DNA of 41,572 nucleotides from contig JAGGYA010000013.1 in the NCBI GenBank assembly GCA_021162785.1, positions 1-41,572 of the forward strand, in the 5' to 3' direction. Every line of letters begins with the position of its first letter. Positions within the stretch are counted from its first letter, which is position 1. The stretch is from Candidatus Calescibacteriota bacterium (GTDB taxonomy: Bacteria > CAIJMQ01 > JAADFP01). Shown piece after piece: positions 32,911 through 41,453 of the stretch. The notes beneath the pieces are model-generated. The model was not told where the DNA came from and did no database searches. It saw nothing but the letters and a program-made list of their open reading frames with translations. The position numbers and the translations under genes were made by a program.

Positions 32911-32940
32911 TTGACAAAGAGAGTGCTAAAAATTTAAAAT
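32911..32940 (+). promoter_or_regulatory. Promoter of first MarR operon
   Basis: TTGACA (32911-32916) followed by TAAAAT (32935-32940) with an 18-bp spacer, or TTAAAA with 17. The MarR-type palindrome starts 4 bp downstream, at the expected transcription start, so bound repressor would block initiation. Confidence 0.55.
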
Positions 32941-32944
32941 ATTG

Positions 32945-32967
32945 TATAATTAAAATATTTGATAATA
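32945..32967. promoter_or_regulatory. Imperfect MarR-type operator before marR1
   Basis: A 23-bp element starting TATAATTAAAA and ending ATTTGATAATA. It matches the perfect palindrome before the second MarR gene at all but three positions. The ATG of marR1 is 14 nt further on. Shared symmetry and position suggest autorepression. Confidence 0.55.
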
Positions 32968-32981
32968 AAGGATTTTTACAA

Positions 32982-33410
32982 ATGGATGACCTTAAGAAAT
33001 CTGCTGAAAAGTTGGATGGGATTGTCCTTTCAATCCAGAGGAAAATTAGAGCAAGACTGCATAACGAACTTTCTCAGGGAATAATTACCATCCCTCAATT
33101 CCATGTCCTCACCTATCTTCTCGACCAGGGAGAAGCCATCATGGTGGAACTTGCAAGATTCCTCCAGGTAAGCGCCTCTGCTATCACCAGCATTGTAGAC
33201 AATCTGGTGAAAATGGGTATGGTGGAGAGACATTTTTCTCCGGAAGATCGGAGAATAGTCCTTGTTTCCCTTACCAGAAAGGGGAAGGAGATTATCACCA
33301 GGATTCAGCGAGAATTCAGAGAACTCCTGGAAAATATCCTGGAAAAATTCACCCCAAAGGAAAGGGAAAAATTTCTCCAATTAAGTGAGAAAATGGAAAG
33401 GCTGTTATGA
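32982..33410 (+). CDS. MarR-family transcriptional regulator (copy 1)
   Basis: A 142-aa winged-helix regulator. The DNA-binding core is FHVLTYLLDQGEAIMVELAR, then LQVSASAITSIVDNLVKMGMVERH (recognition helix) and SPEDRRIVLVSLTRKGKE (wing). N- and C-terminal helices form the dimer interface. It is a close paralog of the regulator at 35163, sharing SIQRKIRARLHNELS-type and KFTPKEREK segments. It overlaps tolC by 4 nt, so it controls an efflux operon and probably itself. Confidence 0.92.
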   Translation: MDDLKKSAEKLDGIVLSIQRKIRARLHNELSQGIITIPQFHVLTYLLDQGEAIMVELARFLQVSASAITSIVDNLVKMGMVERHFSPEDRRIVLVSLTRKGKEIITRIQREFRELLENILEKFTPKEREKFLQLSEKMERLL

Positions 33411-34744
33411 AATCAAAAACACTGTTTTTCCTGCTTGTTACTTTTCCAGTTTTCCTCCTCGCCCAGCCTTTGACTCTTAAGGAAAGCATTTCCATAGCCT
33501 TAAAAAACAATCCCTCCTTAAAGGTAGCAAAAGAGAAAATTAAAGAGGCTGAAGCTGAAAAGAAAAAAAGTATAAGTTATTTTCTCCCCCATCTCTACTC
33601 CTCCTCTTCTTACACACGCCTTGATGAAAAGAAAAAGATGGAAATGAGTCTGCCCCCCATCCCTGGATTTCCCCCTCTTCCAGAAACATCCGTAACTCTT
33701 ACAGATGAAGAGATTTACGACTACAACCTCACTATTACTCAACCCATTTTCACTGGAGGAAGACTTACTGCACTATACAGAATGAATAACTTTAATTTTA
33801 AATGTTCCCTCTTCCAGCAGGAAAAAGTTAAAAATGACCTCATATTTGAGGTTAAAAAAGCCTATTACGAGGTCCTTACCGCAGAAAAACTGAAAAAGGT
33901 GGGTGAAGAAACTTTAAAGCAAACCCAAGCTCATCTAAAAGTGGTGGAAAACTTCTATCGGGAAGGTATGGTGCCGGAAGTTGAGGTTACCAGAGCAAGA
34001 GTAGCAGTGAGTAAAGCAAGAGAATTATTGATCAATACTGAAAATTCTCTCAAACTTGCTCAGGCCTATTTCAACAGTGTCCTTCATCGAGACATGGATG
34101 AAGAAGTCATACTGGAAGATATTCTTGAGTGTGAGGAAGCAGAGGTAGAGCTGGAAAAATGCATAAAGGAAGCATTCCTTCATCGACCAGAGTTAAAGGA
34201 ACTTGAGGAAAGAATAAAAATGGGTGAGGAAGGTATAAAAATAGCTCGTTCTGACTTCTTTCCTCAAGTATCCCTTCTCTATTCCTGGGATAGGAAAAGA
34301 GGCGAGGAAATTCCCATTGATGAATGGCAGGATTCCTGGATGGCGGTGATTTCCGTAACCCTCAATATCTGGGACTGGGGTGCAACTTGGAATGAAGTAA
34401 AGAAAGCTAAGGCACAGGTAGAACAATTGAAACAAACTCTCCAGCTTCTCAAGAAAAGAGTGGAACTGGAGGTGAGACAGGCCTATTTTAACCTCATCTC
34501 TTCAAAGGAAAGAATAAAGGTGAGTGAGGAAAGGGTAAAAGAAGCGGAGAAAAACTTCCATGACACAAGTTTAAGGTTCCAGGAGGGTATGGCCACAAAC
34601 ACTGATGTCCTGGATGCCCAGACCATGCTTACCCGAGCAAAAAGCGATTACTACCGCTCACTTTACAACTACAGAATTGCTCTTGCTCGCCTTGAGAAAG
34701 CCATGGGAAGAGAAATTTCAGATTTGAAAAGAGAGGAAAAATGA
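33407..34744 (+). CDS. TolC-family outer-membrane efflux channel
   Basis: A 445-aa OEP-type channel subunit. A signal peptide (SKTLFFLLVTFPVFLLA) precedes QPLTLKESISIALKNNPSL, the usual family start. The two long helical repeats are seen in KVAKEKIKEAEAEKKK and VEQLKQTLQLLKKRVELEVR, and the end has TNTDVLDAQTMLTRAKSDYY and RLEKAMGREI. It forms the outer-membrane exit duct for tripartite pumps. The next gene start (ATG 34741) overlaps its stop but is dead, so the adaptor and pump must come from elsewhere, likely from 35714 onward. Confidence 0.93.
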   Translation: MKSKTLFFLLVTFPVFLLAQPLTLKESISIALKNNPSLKVAKEKIKEAEAEKKKSISYFLPHLYSSSSYTRLDEKKKMEMSLPPIPGFPPLPETSVTLTDEEIYDYNLTITQPIFTGGRLTALYRMNNFNFKCSLFQQEKVKNDLIFEVKKAYYEVLTAEKLKKVGEETLKQTQAHLKVVENFYREGMVPEVEVTRARVAVSKARELLINTENSLKLAQAYFNSVLHRDMDEEVILEDILECEEAEVELEKCIKEAFLHRPELKELEERIKMGEEGIKIARSDFFPQVSLLYSWDRKRGEEIPIDEWQDSWMAVISVTLNIWDWGATWNEVKKAKAQVEQLKQTLQLLKKRVELEVRQAYFNLISSKERIKVSEERVKEAEKNFHDTSLRFQEGMATNTDVLDAQTMLTRAKSDYYRSLYNYRIALARLEKAMGREISDLKREEK

Positions 34745-34844
34745 AAAAACCCCTTCTCTGACCCTATCCCTTCTGGAATATGTGATCAACCGTAAACTCC
34801 AAGAGTGGAAAAAGGATTTAACCAACTTTGGCAGTTCCCACTAA
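34741..34844 (+). pseudogene. Remnant of adaptor start, possibly fused to a pump end
   Basis: ATG 34741 overlaps the tolC stop and reads MKKPLL then TGA, resembling the first codons of the adaptor at 35714 (MRKPIF). In another frame, 34761-34844 reads SLTLSLLEYVINRKLQEWKK, which is reminiscent of RND pump C-termini. This fits deletion of adaptor and pump genes from the first operon. The start match is short, and the pump-end reading is speculative. The rest of the 34845-35102 gap holds no gene I can support. Confidence 0.4.
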
Positions 34845-35102
34845 AAATCCTCAAAATTAATTTCCGAAAAAACGAGGAACTGGAGGAGAAAGAGAGACAA
34901 TCAGAGAAATGGATAGGCTAAGTGTGGTGAAACTAAGGAGGGATAAAGGAGGAAATGCGAGCCTTTTCCAGAACTCAAAATAGGGTTTTTCCTAAAGCCT
35001 TCCCTGTAATGAGACCTCTCCCCCTTAATTTCCAATCCCTTTATTCATGCCCTTTTCAGAAATCAGGGTGTCAAAGTTGAGTTTAACCCTTACTTTCTCG
35101 AT

Positions 35103-35130
35103 TTGACTTTTCTTTAAGTTTCTATATAAT
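35103..35130 (+). promoter_or_regulatory. Promoter of second MarR operon
   Basis: TTGACT (35103-35108), 16-bp spacer, TATAAT (35125-35130). The -10 is the left edge of the palindromic operator, so repressor and RNA polymerase would compete. A Shine-Dalgarno AAAGGAG follows about 10 nt before the ATG at 35163. Confidence 0.65.
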
Positions 35131-35147
35131 TAAATTATTTAATTATA
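35125..35147. promoter_or_regulatory. Perfect 11-1-11 palindromic operator before marR2
   Basis: The left arm TATAATTAAAT is exactly inverted as ATTTAATTATA around a central T. It covers the -10 box. A near copy stands before the first MarR gene. The sequence is very AT-rich, which raises chance symmetry, but an 11-bp perfect arm repeated before two paralogous regulators is good support. Confidence 0.65.
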
Positions 35148-35162
35148 AAGGAGATGAAATAA

Positions 35163-35588
35163 ATGGGAGTCAAGAAAAATGCTGAGTTACTACACAAGAT
35201 AATCCTTAGCATGCAGAGAAAGATAAGGGCTAAACTTCATAATGAGTTATCCTCTGGAGAGATAAGCATTCCCCAATTTCACATCCTTTCCTATCTTTTA
35301 GAGAAGAAGGAAACCATAATGGTGGATCTCGCCAAATACCTTCAGGTGAGCGCCTCTGCCATCACGGGATTAGTAGACAATCTGGTGAAGATGGGGTTAG
35401 TGGAAAGAAAGTTTTCGCCATTCGATAGAAGGGTTATAATAGCCTCTCTTACAGACAAGGGAAAAAAGGTAGTTACGAGAATCAAACAGCAATTCCGTAA
35501 TTTCTTAGAGGAGATTTTGGAAAAATTTACCCCGGAGGAACGGAAAAAACTTCTGGAACTGAGCGATAAGATGGAGAAACTCCTATGA
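35163..35588 (+). CDS. MarR-family transcriptional regulator (copy 2)
   Basis: A 141-aa winged-helix regulator, closely similar to copy 1 along its whole length: MQRKIRAKLHNELSSGEISIPQFHIL, LQVSASAITGLVDNLVKMGLVERK, SPFDRRVIIASLTDKGKK and KFTPEERKKLLELSDKMEKLL. It has a good Shine-Dalgarno. Its stop overlaps an ATG (35585) that begins a tolC remnant, the same coupling as between copy 1 and tolC. It probably represses the adaptor-pump genes downstream; ligand unknown. Confidence 0.92.
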   Translation: MGVKKNAELLHKIILSMQRKIRAKLHNELSSGEISIPQFHILSYLLEKKETIMVDLAKYLQVSASAITGLVDNLVKMGLVERKFSPFDRRVIIASLTDKGKKVVTRIKQQFRNFLEEILEKFTPEERKKLLELSDKMEKLL

Positions 35589-35712
35589 GGAAAAATCCCT
35601 TCCTTGGATGGGCATGGAAGGAAGTGAAGCGTCGGAGATGGGAAAAGGAGAGGCTTTATGTGATTTTCAGATGGCAAAAGTGGAATTGGAGAAGGAAATG
35701 GAGGTAAAGTGA
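35585..35712 (+). pseudogene. Remnant of a tolC gene (start plus C-terminal tail)
   Basis: ATG 35585 overlaps the marR2 stop as tolC does after marR1 and reads MRKNPFLG, like a signal-peptide start. From about 35656, in another frame, the text LCDFQMAKVELEKEMEVK runs to the TGA at 35710. It aligns with the intact TolC end LYNYRIALARLEKAMG (shared L, A, LEK and M, with conservative changes between). So a large internal deletion removed nearly all of tolC. A 40-codon Trp/Arg-rich reading from 35585 exists but looks like an out-of-frame artefact. Confidence 0.7.
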
Positions 35713-35713
35713 G

Positions 35714-36811
35714 ATGAGAAAACCGATTTTTTTAGCATTTCTTTTAGTTCTTTTCCCATCCTTAATGTTCGGCTTTGGATTTAGAAGAGAAAGAAGAGAA
35801 ATTATGGAGAAAGAAGTAAAGGTGCCTGTGAAGGTGGAGAAAGTAAAAAGAGGAGAAATTAAAAAGACCATTGATACATATGGAAATATTCTTCCTTATA
35901 AAAGAATCATAATTTATTCAAAGGTTCCGGGGGTTTTAGAGAGACTTTACTTTGATGAAGGAGATAGGGTTAAGGAAGGGGAACTTCTTGCAGAGATTGA
36001 GCATGAAGAACTTGAATTGAGGATAAAAAGCCTTAAAGCATCACTGAAAATGGCTGAGATAGAACTGGAGAGGATTAAAAAGGACTTTAAAAGGATTTCC
36101 TCCCTTTATAAAGAAAAAGCTGTATCTTCTCAACAGTATGACGATATAAAAGCAGGATATGAAACAGCAAAAGCAAGGGTGGAAAGCATTAAAGCAAATC
36201 TTTCTCTCGCAGAGAAGCAATTAAAAGATTCTTACATAACTGCTCCTTTCTCAGGAATAATTGAGAAGAAATTTGTTGATGAAGGAGAAATGATTACAGG
36301 TTCAAGTATGATGAAAAGTTCCCCTATTTATAGTCTCATAAAGGTTGATAAGGTAAAGATAATAGGAGAAGTAGCAGAGAATGATTTTCCATCTTTAAAA
36401 AAGGGTATGAAGGTTCTTATAAAAGTAGATGCATATCCAGAAAAATTATTTGAAGGTAGAGTTACAGATATTTCCCCTTCAATAGACCCATTATCCAGAA
36501 CAGGTAAGGTAAAGGTAGAGATTGATAATCCTCAATATAAATTAAAACCTGGTATGTTTGCAAGGATGAAAATAATAGTAAAGGAGAGAAAAAATACATT
36601 AGTTATTAATGAGAAAGCTATTTTTAAAGAGAACTCAAAGTTCTTTGTCTGGGTAGTAAAAAATGGAAAGGTCAGAAAAAGGTATGTTGAAAAAGGGATA
36701 GAGGAAAGAAGAAAAGTTGAAATCTTAAAGGGACTGGAAGAAGGAGAAGAGGTGGTTATAGAAGGAGGAATTGGTCTTAAGGAAGGAATGGAAGTTGAGG
36801 TAAGAAAATGA
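35714..36811 (+). CDS. RND efflux periplasmic adaptor subunit (MFP/HlyD family)
   Basis: A 365-aa membrane-fusion protein. A signal sequence (PIFLAFLLVLFPSLMFGF) precedes the lipoyl/barrel-sandwich halves (IIIYSKVPGVLERLYFDEGDRVKEGELLAEI and DSYITAPFSGIIEKKFVDEGEMI), which flank a coiled-coil hairpin (about residues 95-175). A beta-barrel follows (VKIIGEVAENDFPSLKKGMKV) and a membrane-proximal domain ends it. It bridges the inner-membrane pump to TolC. Its stop overlaps the pump start (ATGA). From here on the DNA looks richer in A/T and in ATA and GGA codons than the genes before 34745. Confidence 0.93.
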   Translation: MRKPIFLAFLLVLFPSLMFGFGFRRERREIMEKEVKVPVKVEKVKRGEIKKTIDTYGNILPYKRIIIYSKVPGVLERLYFDEGDRVKEGELLAEIEHEELELRIKSLKASLKMAEIELERIKKDFKRISSLYKEKAVSSQQYDDIKAGYETAKARVESIKANLSLAEKQLKDSYITAPFSGIIEKKFVDEGEMITGSSMMKSSPIYSLIKVDKVKIIGEVAENDFPSLKKGMKVLIKVDAYPEKLFEGRVTDISPSIDPLSRTGKVKVEIDNPQYKLKPGMFARMKIIVKERKNTLVINEKAIFKENSKFFVWVVKNGKVRKRYVEKGIEERRKVEILKGLEEGEEVVIEGGIGLKEGMEVEVRK

Positions 36812-39800
36812 ATATACCGGAAATTTCAGTTAAGAGAAAAGTTACAACTTTAATGATTGTTTTAATGCTTTGTATTTTGGGTATTCTTTCCTTCTTTAAT
36901 TTAGGTTTGGATATGATGCCTGATCTGGAATATCCTGTTGTTTCAATTGTAACGACTTACGAGGGAGTCTCTTCTGAAGAGATAGAATCAAGGATTACTA
37001 AATTGATTGAAGAATCCATAGGACTTGTAAAACATGTTAAAAAAGTATCCTCTTTTTCAATGGAAGGTATATCAGTTGTAATGGTTGAATTCCAGTGGGG
37101 AACAAAACTTGATTTTGCTGCCCAGGAGGTGAGGGATAGGGTCTCATTAATTGAAGATTATCTTCCAGATGATGCGGATAAACCAATTGTTATTAAATAT
37201 AATCCTTCAGATATGCCTATTCTTCTTTATGCTGTAACAGGATTTGGGGAAGACACTTTAAAATTGAGAACATACCTTGATGACGAAATAAAGCCAAGAT
37301 TGGAAGGAATAGATGGTGTGGCTCAGGTTATGCTTATGGGAGGGAAGAAAAGGGAGATAAATATATTTGTTGATGGTGAGAAATTAAAGGGATATAAGCT
37401 TTCTCTACTTCAGATTGTAAATGCTTTAAGAATGGAAAATATAAATATCTCAGGAGGACATATAAAGAAAGGATATAAGGAATATCTTTTAAGAACTTTA
37501 GGTGAGTATAAGAGTTTAGAGCCAATTAAAAACACAATAGTCGGAATTTATCAAGGTAAACCAGTTTATGTAAAGGATATTGCAGAAGTTAAGGATACAT
37601 TTAAAGAAGTAAGAGGTTATGCAAGAGTTGATGGGAAGGACTGCGTAATACTTGGAATAATGAAACAATCAGGAGCAAATGTAGTAAAGGTATCAGATAG
37701 GGTAAAGAAAAAACTTTCATCTCTAAAAGAAATAATACCTCCCCATGTTAAATTCTATAAATTAATGGATTTTGGTGATGTAGCAAAAAGAGTTGTAAGA
37801 ATGACAACCGAAAATGTCTTACAAGGTGGAATTATCACTGTAATTTTACTCTTCCTTTTCCTAAGGAGTTTTACCCCAACCCTTGTTGTCGGTTTATCCA
37901 TTCCTTTTTCCCTTCTTGTTGCTTTTATTGGAATATATTCAGCAGGATATACCTTGAATGTGGTGACCATGGCGGGAATGGCTCTTGGTGTGGGTATGCT
38001 TGTATCCAATGCCATAATAGTTATTGAGAATATATTCCGTTATCTTGAAGAAGGGAAACCACCTGATATATCTGCATCAGGTGGAACAACAGAGGTTATG
38101 GGAGCAATTTTAGCATCAACTTTGACAACCATAATAGTTTTCTTACCTACAATATTTGTTACAGGAATTACAGGAAGGTTAATAAGACCGCTTGCTTTAA
38201 CTGTGACTGTTTCCTTAATTGCTTCCTTCATTGCTGCAATTACTTTAGTTCCAATGATTTCCTCAGTTTTATTTAAAGGTAAAGGGGAAAAATTAAAAAT
38301 AGCAGAGGAAAAAGGATTTGGGAAAATAAAAAATTTTTACAAAAAGACTCTAACATTTGCTTTAAATCATAAATTATTATTCATCCTCCCTTCTTTTATT
38401 CTTTTTGGATTAAGCCTGTGGGGATTAAAATTTATTGGTAAAGAATTTATACCTTCAATAGATACACCAATGCAGATTTTCAAATTAAGTATGCCAGTAG
38501 GAACAACATTGGAAGATACAGAAAAGTATGTTGAATACATAGAAAGATGTTTCAAAGAACCTGAGGTAATCCATATTGCTTCTTTTGGTGGAATGAGTGA
38601 GGCATCAAAACTTGATGTTGCCTTTGGTATGGGAAGTTCAGAAGTTTATGAAGCACAGGTATTCGGAAGATTTAAGTGGAAAGAAGATAGGAAAAGGAGC
38701 ATATTCCAGATAAGAGATGCTATAAGGAAGAAAATTGCTCCTCTGGAAGGTATTCATTATGAATTTACTGATATGAGCAAAATGATGACGACTGCAGGTG
38801 GGGAAACTCAAGATATTGTTATAAAAATATTTGGGAAAGAATTACCGGTTTTAAAAAGAATAGCGGAGGAAGTTAAGGAAAGGATAAAGAATATTCATGG
38901 ACTTAAGGATTTGGATATAAGTTTGAAGACTGGAAAGCCTGAGATTAAAGTAATTATTGATAGAGAGAAAGCATCAAGAATTGGTTTAACAAGTGCTATT
39001 ATTGGTTCTACAGTAAAGACAGCATTTCTTGGCGAGGTTTCAACAAAATATAGAATTGGTGGAGATGAATATGATATGAGGGTAAGGTTCAAAGAGCCTT
39101 ATAGAAGAGATATTAAAGATTTAGAGAATCTTACCATAACTACAATGGGGGGTGTTCAAGTTCCACTTAAAGAGGTTGCAAAGATAGAAATTGGGAAAGG
39201 CCCTGTAAAAATAGAAAGGGAGAATAAAAAGAGGAAGGTCTCAGTTACAGGGAATGTTTCAGGAAGGGATTTAGGGTCTGTTGTGGAAGAAATAAAAGAA
39301 AAAATAAAGGATATAAAACTTCCCTTTGGATATTACATAGAATTTGGTGGTCAATACGAAAAGATGAAGGAGGCATTTGGTAGTTTATTCTTTGCATTTA
39401 TATTCGCAATTATCTTAGTTTATATGGTAATGGCATCAGATTTTGAATCCTTAATTCATCCATTAATAGTTATGTTCACATTGCCACTGGGGATAATAGG
39501 TGTTGTAGCAGGGCTTTTAATTTCTCATTCCACATTAAATATTGGTTCATTTCTCGGAATGATACTTATGGCTGGAGTTGTTGTAAACAATGGAATAGTA
39601 ATGATAGATTATGTGAATTTACTCAGGAGAGAAAGGAAAAAAGATGTGAGAGAATCTTTAATTGAAGGATGCACAACAAAACTTAGAGCAATAATACTTA
39701 CCACTCTAACAACAGTTTTTGGAATGTTTCCAATGGCAATATCTCATACTTCAGGTTCAGAGTTTAGAGCACCTATGGCTATATCTGTAATTGGAGGAGT

Positions 39801-39885
39801 TTTAATCTCTGCAGTCTTTACCCTTTACCTGATCCCGGTTATCTATGAATTAGCAGAAAAAGTGGGAAGAAGAAGAAAAATATAA
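36808..39885 (+). CDS. RND-family efflux pump, inner-membrane subunit
   Basis: A 1025-aa AcrB/MdtB-like transporter with two repeats of one helix, a periplasmic loop and five further helices. The N-terminus (IPEISVKRKVTTLMIVLMLC, DMMPDLEYPVVSIVTTYEGVSSEEIE) and loops (AAQEVRDRV, DGVAQVMLMGGKKREINIFVD) are typical. In TM4 the conserved Asp of AcrB (D407) is replaced: GMLVSNAIIVIENI has Ser400-Asn401. In TM10 the AcrB Lys940 position is Asn927 (GVVVNNGIVMID). Proton relay must therefore differ or be impaired. Works with the adaptor just upstream; exported substrate unknown. Confidence 0.94.
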   Translation: MNIPEISVKRKVTTLMIVLMLCILGILSFFNLGLDMMPDLEYPVVSIVTTYEGVSSEEIESRITKLIEESIGLVKHVKKVSSFSMEGISVVMVEFQWGTKLDFAAQEVRDRVSLIEDYLPDDADKPIVIKYNPSDMPILLYAVTGFGEDTLKLRTYLDDEIKPRLEGIDGVAQVMLMGGKKREINIFVDGEKLKGYKLSLLQIVNALRMENINISGGHIKKGYKEYLLRTLGEYKSLEPIKNTIVGIYQGKPVYVKDIAEVKDTFKEVRGYARVDGKDCVILGIMKQSGANVVKVSDRVKKKLSSLKEIIPPHVKFYKLMDFGDVAKRVVRMTTENVLQGGIITVILLFLFLRSFTPTLVVGLSIPFSLLVAFIGIYSAGYTLNVVTMAGMALGVGMLVSNAIIVIENIFRYLEEGKPPDISASGGTTEVMGAILASTLTTIIVFLPTIFVTGITGRLIRPLALTVTVSLIASFIAAITLVPMISSVLFKGKGEKLKIAEEKGFGKIKNFYKKTLTFALNHKLLFILPSFILFGLSLWGLKFIGKEFIPSIDTPMQIFKLSMPVGTTLEDTEKYVEYIERCFKEPEVIHIASFGGMSEASKLDVAFGMGSSEVYEAQVFGRFKWKEDRKRSIFQIRDAIRKKIAPLEGIHYEFTDMSKMMTTAGGETQDIVIKIFGKELPVLKRIAEEVKERIKNIHGLKDLDISLKTGKPEIKVIIDREKASRIGLTSAIIGSTVKTAFLGEVSTKYRIGGDEYDMRVRFKEPYRRDIKDLENLTITTMGGVQVPLKEVAKIEIGKGPVKIERENKKRKVSVTGNVSGRDLGSVVEEIKEKIKDIKLPFGYYIEFGGQYEKMKEAFGSLFFAFIFAIILVYMVMASDFESLIHPLIVMFTLPLGIIGVVAGLLISHSTLNIGSFLGMILMAGVVVNNGIVMIDYVNLLRRERKKDVRESLIEGCTTKLRAIILTTLTTVFGMFPMAISHTSGSEFRAPMAISVIGGVLISAVFTLYLIPVIYELAEKVGRRRKI

Positions 39886-39930
39886 AGTAGGCACTTGAAA
39901 AGGCTCTCAATAGTTTAGAGGGGTGAAAGA

Positions 39931-40096
39931 ATGGAGTTTAAAGCAGGTTGGATATTAGTTTGTCTTGGAGTGAGCAGTTAGTCTGGAATTGAGGGCATTG
40001 GTAACAACTAAGAAGAAGGTAAAAGAAATAGTGGATGAGTTATCTAAAGAAGGCAGAATTGGGCAAGAAGAAGGTAAGCATGTTAGGAGATATTAA
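39931..40096 (+). pseudogene. Phasin-like small gene with a frameshift
   Basis: ATG 39931 has a strong GAGGGGTG Shine-Dalgarno and reads MEFKAGWILVCLGVSS then TAG. In the next frame, 39992-40096 reads ALVTTKKKVKEIVDELSKEG and ends GQEEGKHVRRY, close to the pattern TKEKVEELVDELVKKGEISKEEGK of phasin-related proteins that often precede ABC1-kinase genes. A one-base shift between the parts would restore it. It overlaps the start of the kinase gene by 17 nt. Confidence 0.55.
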
Positions 40097-41453
40097 GCAA
40101 AAGATTCATAACATTCAAAGGCTAAATCAAATCTTGTGGGTTTTAGTCAAATACGGCTTTGGCTACATTGTTGACCGTTTGCATATTGGAGAGAAGCTCA
40201 TCCGGAGAAAACTGGTCAGGCGCGGTCCCCTAAGGAGGTTAGATATATTTGATATGCCAGCCTCTGTCAGGGTTCGCAAGGTTCTGGAAGAATTAGGGCC
40301 AACATTTATTAAGTTAGGACAGATATTAAGCACACGGCCTGATTTAGTGCCACTGGAATTTTGTGAAGAGTTTAAGAAACTCCAAGATAAAGCCCCTGTT
40401 TTTGAGTATGAAAAAGCGAAGAAAATAGTGGAAGAAGAACTCAAATGTCCTATTGATGAATTATTTGATGAATTTTCTGTAAAACCTATAGCTGCTGCTT
40501 CCTTATCCCAGGTTCATTCGGGTAAGTTAAAAACAGGAGAAAAAGTTATCGTAAAGGTTCAAAGACCAAATGTAGAAAGGATAATTAAACAAGATATCGA
40601 AATATTATACACATTAGCCAAATTAGCCGAAAAATATATTGAGGAAAGTAAACTTTATAATCCAGTGGAAATAGTAGATGAGTTTAGAAAGGCAATTTTA
40701 AAAGAGATTGATTTCAATACAGAAGCAAACAATATCGATAGGTTCCGCAGGAATTTTAAAGGTGATGATACAGTATATATCCCCAAAGTATTCCATGATC
40801 TATCAACCAAAAGAATCCTAATTATAGAGAAAATTGAAGGGATAAAGGTAACAGATGTAGAAAAGATAGAGAAATCAGGACTGGATAAGAAAAAAATAGC
40901 CATAAATGGAGCTAATGCAGTATTGAAACAGATTTTTGTAGATGGTTTCTTCCATGCAGACCCTCATCCTGGGAATATTTTTGTCTTGGATAATAATAGG
41001 ATTGCCTTTTTGGATTTTGGTATGGTAGGCCGCATTGATGAGGAGACAAAATCACAGTTTGCTAATATCTTGCAAGCAATTATTGAGCGAGATGCATCCA
41101 CCATAATAGAATCTTTTATTGCTTTGGGGATGGTTGAGGAAGATATGGATATTAAAAAACTTGAACTGGATGTTGCAGACCTTATAGACCGCTACTATGA
41201 GGTACCTTTAAAAGAGTTAAGAATGGAACGGCTCGTAGGAGAGATAATTAATGTGGTTTCGGAAAACAGGATAAAAGTTCCTCCTAATTTATACCTTTTA
41301 GCAAAAACACTGATAACAGTTGAAAGTATAGGAAGAGAGCTCGACCCTGATTTCAATATGATAACCAAAATAAGACCTTTTGTAAAGAAACTGTTTTGGC
41401 ATAAATATAAGGTCAAGTCCCATTTTTCCTGTAAAAAAGAGAGAGCCTTATAA
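40080..41453 (+). CDS. ABC1/AarF/UbiB-family atypical kinase-like protein
   Basis: About 457 aa. The family-specific PTFIKLGQILSTRPDLVP (KxGQ motif) comes first, then the Ala-rich nucleotide loop KPIAAASLSQVHSGKLKTGEKVIVKVQRP, EIDFNTEANNIDRFRRNF, and the catalytic FFHADPHPGNIFV with metal-binding IAFLDFGMVGRID. UbiB/COQ8 relatives support quinone or isoprenoid-lipid metabolism. I place the start at ATG 40080 (MLGDIKQKIHNIQRL), where relatives begin; ATG 40035 would add 15 residues lying over the phasin-like remnant. Unlike many family members, no C-terminal membrane hairpin is evident. Confidence 0.9.
   Translation: MLGDIKQKIHNIQRLNQILWVLVKYGFGYIVDRLHIGEKLIRRKLVRRGPLRRLDIFDMPASVRVRKVLEELGPTFIKLGQILSTRPDLVPLEFCEEFKKLQDKAPVFEYEKAKKIVEEELKCPIDELFDEFSVKPIAAASLSQVHSGKLKTGEKVIVKVQRPNVERIIKQDIEILYTLAKLAEKYIEESKLYNPVEIVDEFRKAILKEIDFNTEANNIDRFRRNFKGDDTVYIPKVFHDLSTKRILIIEKIEGIKVTDVEKIEKSGLDKKKIAINGANAVLKQIFVDGFFHADPHPGNIFVLDNNRIAFLDFGMVGRIDEETKSQFANILQAIIERDASTIIESFIALGMVEEDMDIKKLELDVADLIDRYYEVPLKELRMERLVGEIINVVSENRIKVPPNLYLLAKTLITVESIGRELDPDFNMITKIRPFVKKLFWHKYKVKSHFSCKKERAL

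Follow-up and report, generated by a model that had tools for sequence, protein, structure and literature searches.

A putative mosaic tripartite RND efflux system with native-type regulators and channel and an Omnitrophota-type adaptor and pump in a Candidatus Calescibacteriota genome

Analysis of a 41,572-base contig (C9; hereafter, the window) of a Candidatus Calescibacteriota genome (G000; 949 kb in 27 contigs, estimated to be 64% complete) points to a mosaic tripartite RND efflux system, in which a native regulator, promoter and outer-membrane channel are probably combined with an acquired adaptor and pump of Omnitrophota type; we place the probability of this reading at about 60%. The genes lie on the forward strand in two neighboring units, namely marR1 (32982-33410) with tolC1 (33407-34744), and marR2 (35163-35588) with the adaptor (35714-36811) and the pump (36808-39885). 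This layout had been proposed in a first-pass annotation of the DNA and is borne out by the open reading frame coordinates as well as by family models recovered in profile searches (MarR for both regulators, OEP for the channel, HlyD/RND_mfp for the adaptor and ACR_tran for the pump). An adaptor and a pump are absent downstream of marR1-tolC1, and a 125-bp scar occupies the place of tolC in the marR2-adaptor-pump unit. A channel is nevertheless available, in that tolC1 sits in the transcription unit neighboring the adaptor-pump genes; it is the only OEP gene found in the 949-kb genome, which likewise contains a single adaptor and a single RND pump of this type. The earlier description of one full tripartite pump spread over two promoters under paralogous repressors thus holds in terms of gene content, its function as a single pump being plausible. 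Comparison with plasmids gave no match, a search of named genomes with the MarR query gave none either, and a literature search at the level of titles found no report of this locus.

Comparison with the six other genomes of the class (G001-G006) reveals the native counterpart of these genes. The first-pass annotation had recommended a comparison with relatives retaining an intact operon, and a marR-tolC-adaptor-pump operon is indeed present in five of the six: it forms one run in G002, G003, G004 and G006, and the same genes are distributed over two contig ends in G001. The sixth relative, G005, has no close copy of it. All five operon-bearing genomes show a four-base overlap between the marR stop and the tolC start. 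The genes of the window resemble this class operon in the presence of a MarR, an operator over the promoter, the four-base marR/tolC overlap and the OEP-adaptor-RND complement, but differ in being split over two promoters and in having an adaptor and pump that are not orthologs of the class genes. As a separate observation, G003 also carries a second, TetR-linked tolC-adaptor-pump operon (contig C12, L063, 1738-7839) with the same pump subtype, which is close to that of G342, a genome outside the class; this suggests that operons of the TetR-linked type have been transferred repeatedly among distant groups.

The regulators and their promoters are of native type. MarR1 (142 aa; Pfam MarR, 2.3e-16) is 61-62% identical to the MarR proteins of G001 and G002, MarR2 (141 aa; Pfam MarR, 1.6e-13) is 66-70% identical to them, and the two are 67% identical to each other; in the tree MarR1, MarR2 and the G001/G002 proteins form an unresolved trichotomy, which does not fix the order of duplication. 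The marR1 promoter and operator (32911-32972, forward strand), recovered in a promoter scan, comprise a TTGACA element at 32911-32916 and an operator-like box at 32945-32972 (TATAATTAAAATATTTGATAATAAAGGA), while those of marR2 (35103-35152, forward strand) comprise TTGACT at 35103, TATAAT at 35125 and a box at 35125-35152. The two 28-base boxes are identical at 24 of 28 positions, with a local alignment score of 41 as against 17.3 ± 2.6 (maximum 31) for shuffled sequences, and the marR2 box contains a perfect 11+1+11 palindrome covering the -10 element. Related boxes occur 5' of marR in all relatives examined, and none was seen 5' of the Omnitrophota tetR (L178). MarR-family proteins act as autorepressors, and by analogy MarR1 and MarR2 probably each repress both promoters; if either repressor does act on both, the channel and the pump would still be induced together.

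TolC1 (445 aa; Pfam OEP, PF02321, 245 bits), which is 57% identical to the TolC of G002, is followed by a probable dead adaptor start at 34741-34761 (forward strand), where an ATGA overlaps the end of tolC1 and opens a frame that reads MKKPLL before a stop codon. The same ATGA coupling of tolC stop and adaptor start is seen in G001 and G002, where the adaptor then begins MKKIII, and the ATGA at 34741 lies at exactly the equivalent place, in agreement with the earlier identification of this site as a dead adaptor start. The intergenic region that follows (34745-35162) is without a detectable adaptor, pump or tolC relic: a six-frame comparison of 34745-35130 with these three genes gave a best score of 43, which is at the chance level (44 ± 3.7 for shuffled sequences). 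A 27-nt match to part of tolC1, located at 34868, was considered as a possible relic and set aside, its 78% identity being too weak. Outside the class, the TolC of G342 (L124) is 51% identical to TolC1 and the G342 adaptor groups with the class adaptors; given these two proteins, exchange between groups may have involved the native system too.

In the second unit, the segment between marR2 and the adaptor (35585-35712, forward strand) is the scar of a former tolC, combining its start in an ATGA overlap with marR2, a possible middle fragment and a TolC C-terminal-like tail. The ATGA marR/tolC overlap at 33407-33410 recurs at 35585-35588, as the first-pass annotation had noted, and since this coupling is kept in the five class relatives as well as at tolC1, it marks the ATG at 35585 as the former tolC start. 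The frame 35587-35712 reads ...GEALCDFQMAKVELEKEMEVK followed by the stop, and its tail (35656-35712) ends in a TGA one base 5' of the adaptor ATG at 35714. When aligned with TolC homologs at their C-terminal ends, this tail attains a best score of 42, which was reached by none of 1000 dinucleotide shuffles (24.4 ± 3.4, maximum 40), by one of 4000 random windows of the genome and by none of 1500 purine-rich ones. The similarity to tolC ends, on which the first-pass annotation had staked its claim of a tolC reduced to its start and C-terminal tail, is hence present at the protein level, and the start position and the tail together mark a former tolC in this unit. The DNA alignment suggested earlier would not have revealed it, as the spacer DNA aligns with tolC1 and with the tolC genes of G001, G002 and G130 at chance scores; the identification of the tail therefore rests on protein-level evidence. 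A middle fragment (GWAWKEVKRRR) resembling TolC1 residues 324-334 (GATWNEVKKAK; p about 0.02) is only suggestive of a further tolC relic. The tail fits the TolC ends of the class (G002) and of Omnitrophota (G130, L177) about equally, and its use as a pointer to the parent tolC was accordingly dropped. A 40-aa frame from 35585 (MRKNPFLGW...) was also rejected as a small gene, because it covers the tolC tail in another reading frame.

The adaptor and the pump show a different affinity. Both are of RND type, with the adaptor (365 aa, forward strand) matching TIGR01730 at 9.6e-83 (277.8 bits; cut-off 94.9) and the pump (1025 aa, forward strand) matching Pfam ACR_tran (PF00873) at 8e-259 (8.1e-259). 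The stretch 35813-37233 is 87.6% identical in DNA over 1424 bases to a locus of the Omnitrophota bacterium B48_G9 (QNCF01000033.1, L178), a comparison that takes in the adaptor and only the first 426 bases of the pump. The adaptors of the two loci are 82% identical in amino acids and 84% in DNA, and the pumps 96% over the 142 aa available; to other Omnitrophota pumps the window pump is 72-75% identical, as against only 37-39% to the marR-linked class pumps of G002 and G006. In the pump tree it groups with Omnitrophota (SH-aLRT 100), the native pumps of G001, G002 and G006 falling elsewhere. The adaptor tree is weaker, with an affinity to G130 at SH-aLRT 85 and a divergence from G130 that is large relative to that of the pump; G130 is here counted as Omnitrophota because its genus label is also that of G386, a genome with a pump contig matching the Omnitrophota record L163. 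The pump grouping and the low identity to the class pumps imply that the adaptor and pump did not originate as the remaining part of a native operon that had been duplicated. Both reading frames are intact and full-length, and dN/dS against L178 (0.094/0.68, about 0.14, for the adaptor; 0.020/0.35, about 0.06, for the 5' part of the pump) indicates purifying selection.

With respect to functional residues, the adaptor carries the RLS hairpin motif at residue 127; this motif and the EGMAT(N/S)TDV tip of TolC occur in the native as well as the donor-type systems. At the proton-relay positions the pump has S400, N401 and N927 in place of the canonical RND residues, D407, D408 and K940 in AcrB. 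The S-N pair at the first two positions is common to the Omnitrophota pumps and the second-system pumps of G003 and G342, while most other homologs aligned have D-N there and N at the third. An AcrB-like proton relay is thus not supported for the window pump by its sequence, and, given that most of the aligned homologs depart from the AcrB residues, these cannot serve to define RND pumps at large.

The change in affinity coincides with a change in base composition. Across the mature adaptor the sequence matches L178 at 80-90% of positions; the match weakens in the signal-peptide region and falls to the chance level of about 50% 5' of the adaptor start, where GC drops from 41% to 34%. GC and GC3 are 0.41 and 0.49 in marR2, 0.335 and 0.265 in the adaptor, 0.34 and 0.30 in the L178 adaptor, and 33.8% and 0.24 in the pump. 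In a scan of sampled stretches of the genome (about 280 kb), the 5-kb segment at the foreign block has the lowest GC of 104 and a tetranucleotide distance of 0.239, against a maximum of 0.190 elsewhere. The block forms the last 5.9 kb of the contig and includes, 3' of the pump, a low-GC ubiB/ABC1 kinase gene (39886-41453) whose nearest relatives (62%) are in the small, unrelated lineage f117. This UbiB is only 39% identical to those of B48_G9 and G002 and about 90 residues shorter at its C-terminus than its homologs, and 5' of its gene lies a degraded remnant of a reading frame found upstream of ubiB in G385 and G121.

Since the foreign block is at a contig end, the main rival is an assembly or amplification chimera, in which the native contig really stops after marR2 and has been fused with a low-GC contig from another organism that carries the Omnitrophota-type adaptor-pump; the cell would then contain no mosaic. 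The abrupt GC and tetranucleotide change near 35714, the extension of the block to the contig end, the occurrence of a donor-like pump (88% in DNA) in another metagenome bin and the lack of a same-species genome that could confirm the join are all in keeping with such an artifact. However, the join falls at an operon-sensible place, with the stop of the tolC tail followed by the adaptor ATG on the right strand and in the right order, and there is no appreciable L178 similarity at the join for an assembler to confuse. The sampled 280 kb contain no other windows of similar GC, and the nearest lineage of the adjoining ubiB (f117 rather than Omnitrophota B48_G9) means that the block is more than a single piece of Omnitrophota DNA. 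On balance we regard a chimera as rather unlikely.

Less probable still is the acquisition of the whole second unit, including marR2, from an unsampled donor in which marR and tolC had been brought together with an Omnitrophota-type adaptor-pump beforehand. The MarR trichotomy leaves room for it, as the tree does not require MarR2 to have arisen by duplication in this lineage; against it, marR2 is host-like in composition, unlike the adaptor (GC3 0.49 versus 0.27), and its operator matches the host's own. The first-pass alternative, in which an operon was acquired and adapted to a TolC already present, comes close, although only the adaptor-pump block looks acquired: the promoter, MarR2 and the operator are native in type, and in the Omnitrophota operon the regulator is a TetR and a tolC is included. 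The first choice of that annotation, a tandem duplication of the native four-gene operon with reciprocal loss, would account for the two paralogous MarRs with the same operator, the complementary gene content and the kept couplings. It fails for the adaptor and pump, which have the wrong affinity (the pump is 37-39% identical to the native G002/G006 pumps versus 72-75% and 96% (142 aa) to Omnitrophota), and survives only for the marR-tolC front end; as an account of the locus it is highly improbable.

Under the preferred reading of a mosaic, an ancestor with the class-typical marR-tolC-adaptor-pump operon would have had a second copy of at least the marR-tolC front end. A transfer from an Omnitrophota relative of B48_G9, a direction suggested by the pump tree and the low GC, would then have placed an adaptor-pump block behind this second front end, with the join at the adaptor start and without the TetR and tolC that the block originally had. 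The second tolC would have decayed by deletion to its start codon and C-terminal tail, with the tight gene spacing kept, and the native adaptor and pump of the first copy are absent from the assembled genome; as the genome is 64% complete, these may also lie in unassembled DNA. MarR1 and MarR2, on near-identical operators over their promoters, would allow an inducer to release both promoters together, and the resident TolC1 would dock with the acquired adaptor-pump to give one pump. The gene content, the scars, the affinity of pump and adaptor, the common operator and the intact frames under purifying selection are observed directly; we infer the direction and mechanism of transfer, the cross-regulation, the assembly with TolC1 and the substrates. 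The acquired pump probably uses TolC1, since no other OEP was recovered and sharing of this one channel is the most economical interpretation; some caution is needed here, as the assembly lacks roughly a third of the genome. We would give even odds to the fuller proposition that the host took up a pump from another phylum, brought it under its MarR control through a join exactly at the adaptor start, and operates it as a three-part machine with the channel of a different, native operon.

The Omnitrophota L178 operon (tetR-tolC-adaptor-pump) has an adaptor and pump closely related to those of the window but differs in its TetR in place of MarR, its retained tolC and its promoter. In the AcrAB-TolC system, an adaptor-pump operon uses a TolC encoded elsewhere. 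The window is comparable in that an adaptor and pump are transcribed without an OEP, the channel being encoded separately and shared, but differs in that this channel has its own adjoining MarR with the same operator, and in that the absence of tolC is derived, with its scar still visible. The parts themselves are ordinary, and, unless the join is an assembly artifact, the case is one of part-swapping in a known machinery. If the join is real, it offers a stepwise view of an efflux system rebuilt from two phyla, with native regulator and channel, foreign adaptor and pump, and a spare tolC in decay. It would then also make it possible to test how tolerant RND adaptors are of a non-cognate TolC and by what route local regulation takes over a transferred pump, and the locus would amount to a natural experiment on how RND pumps exchange parts and capture promoters.
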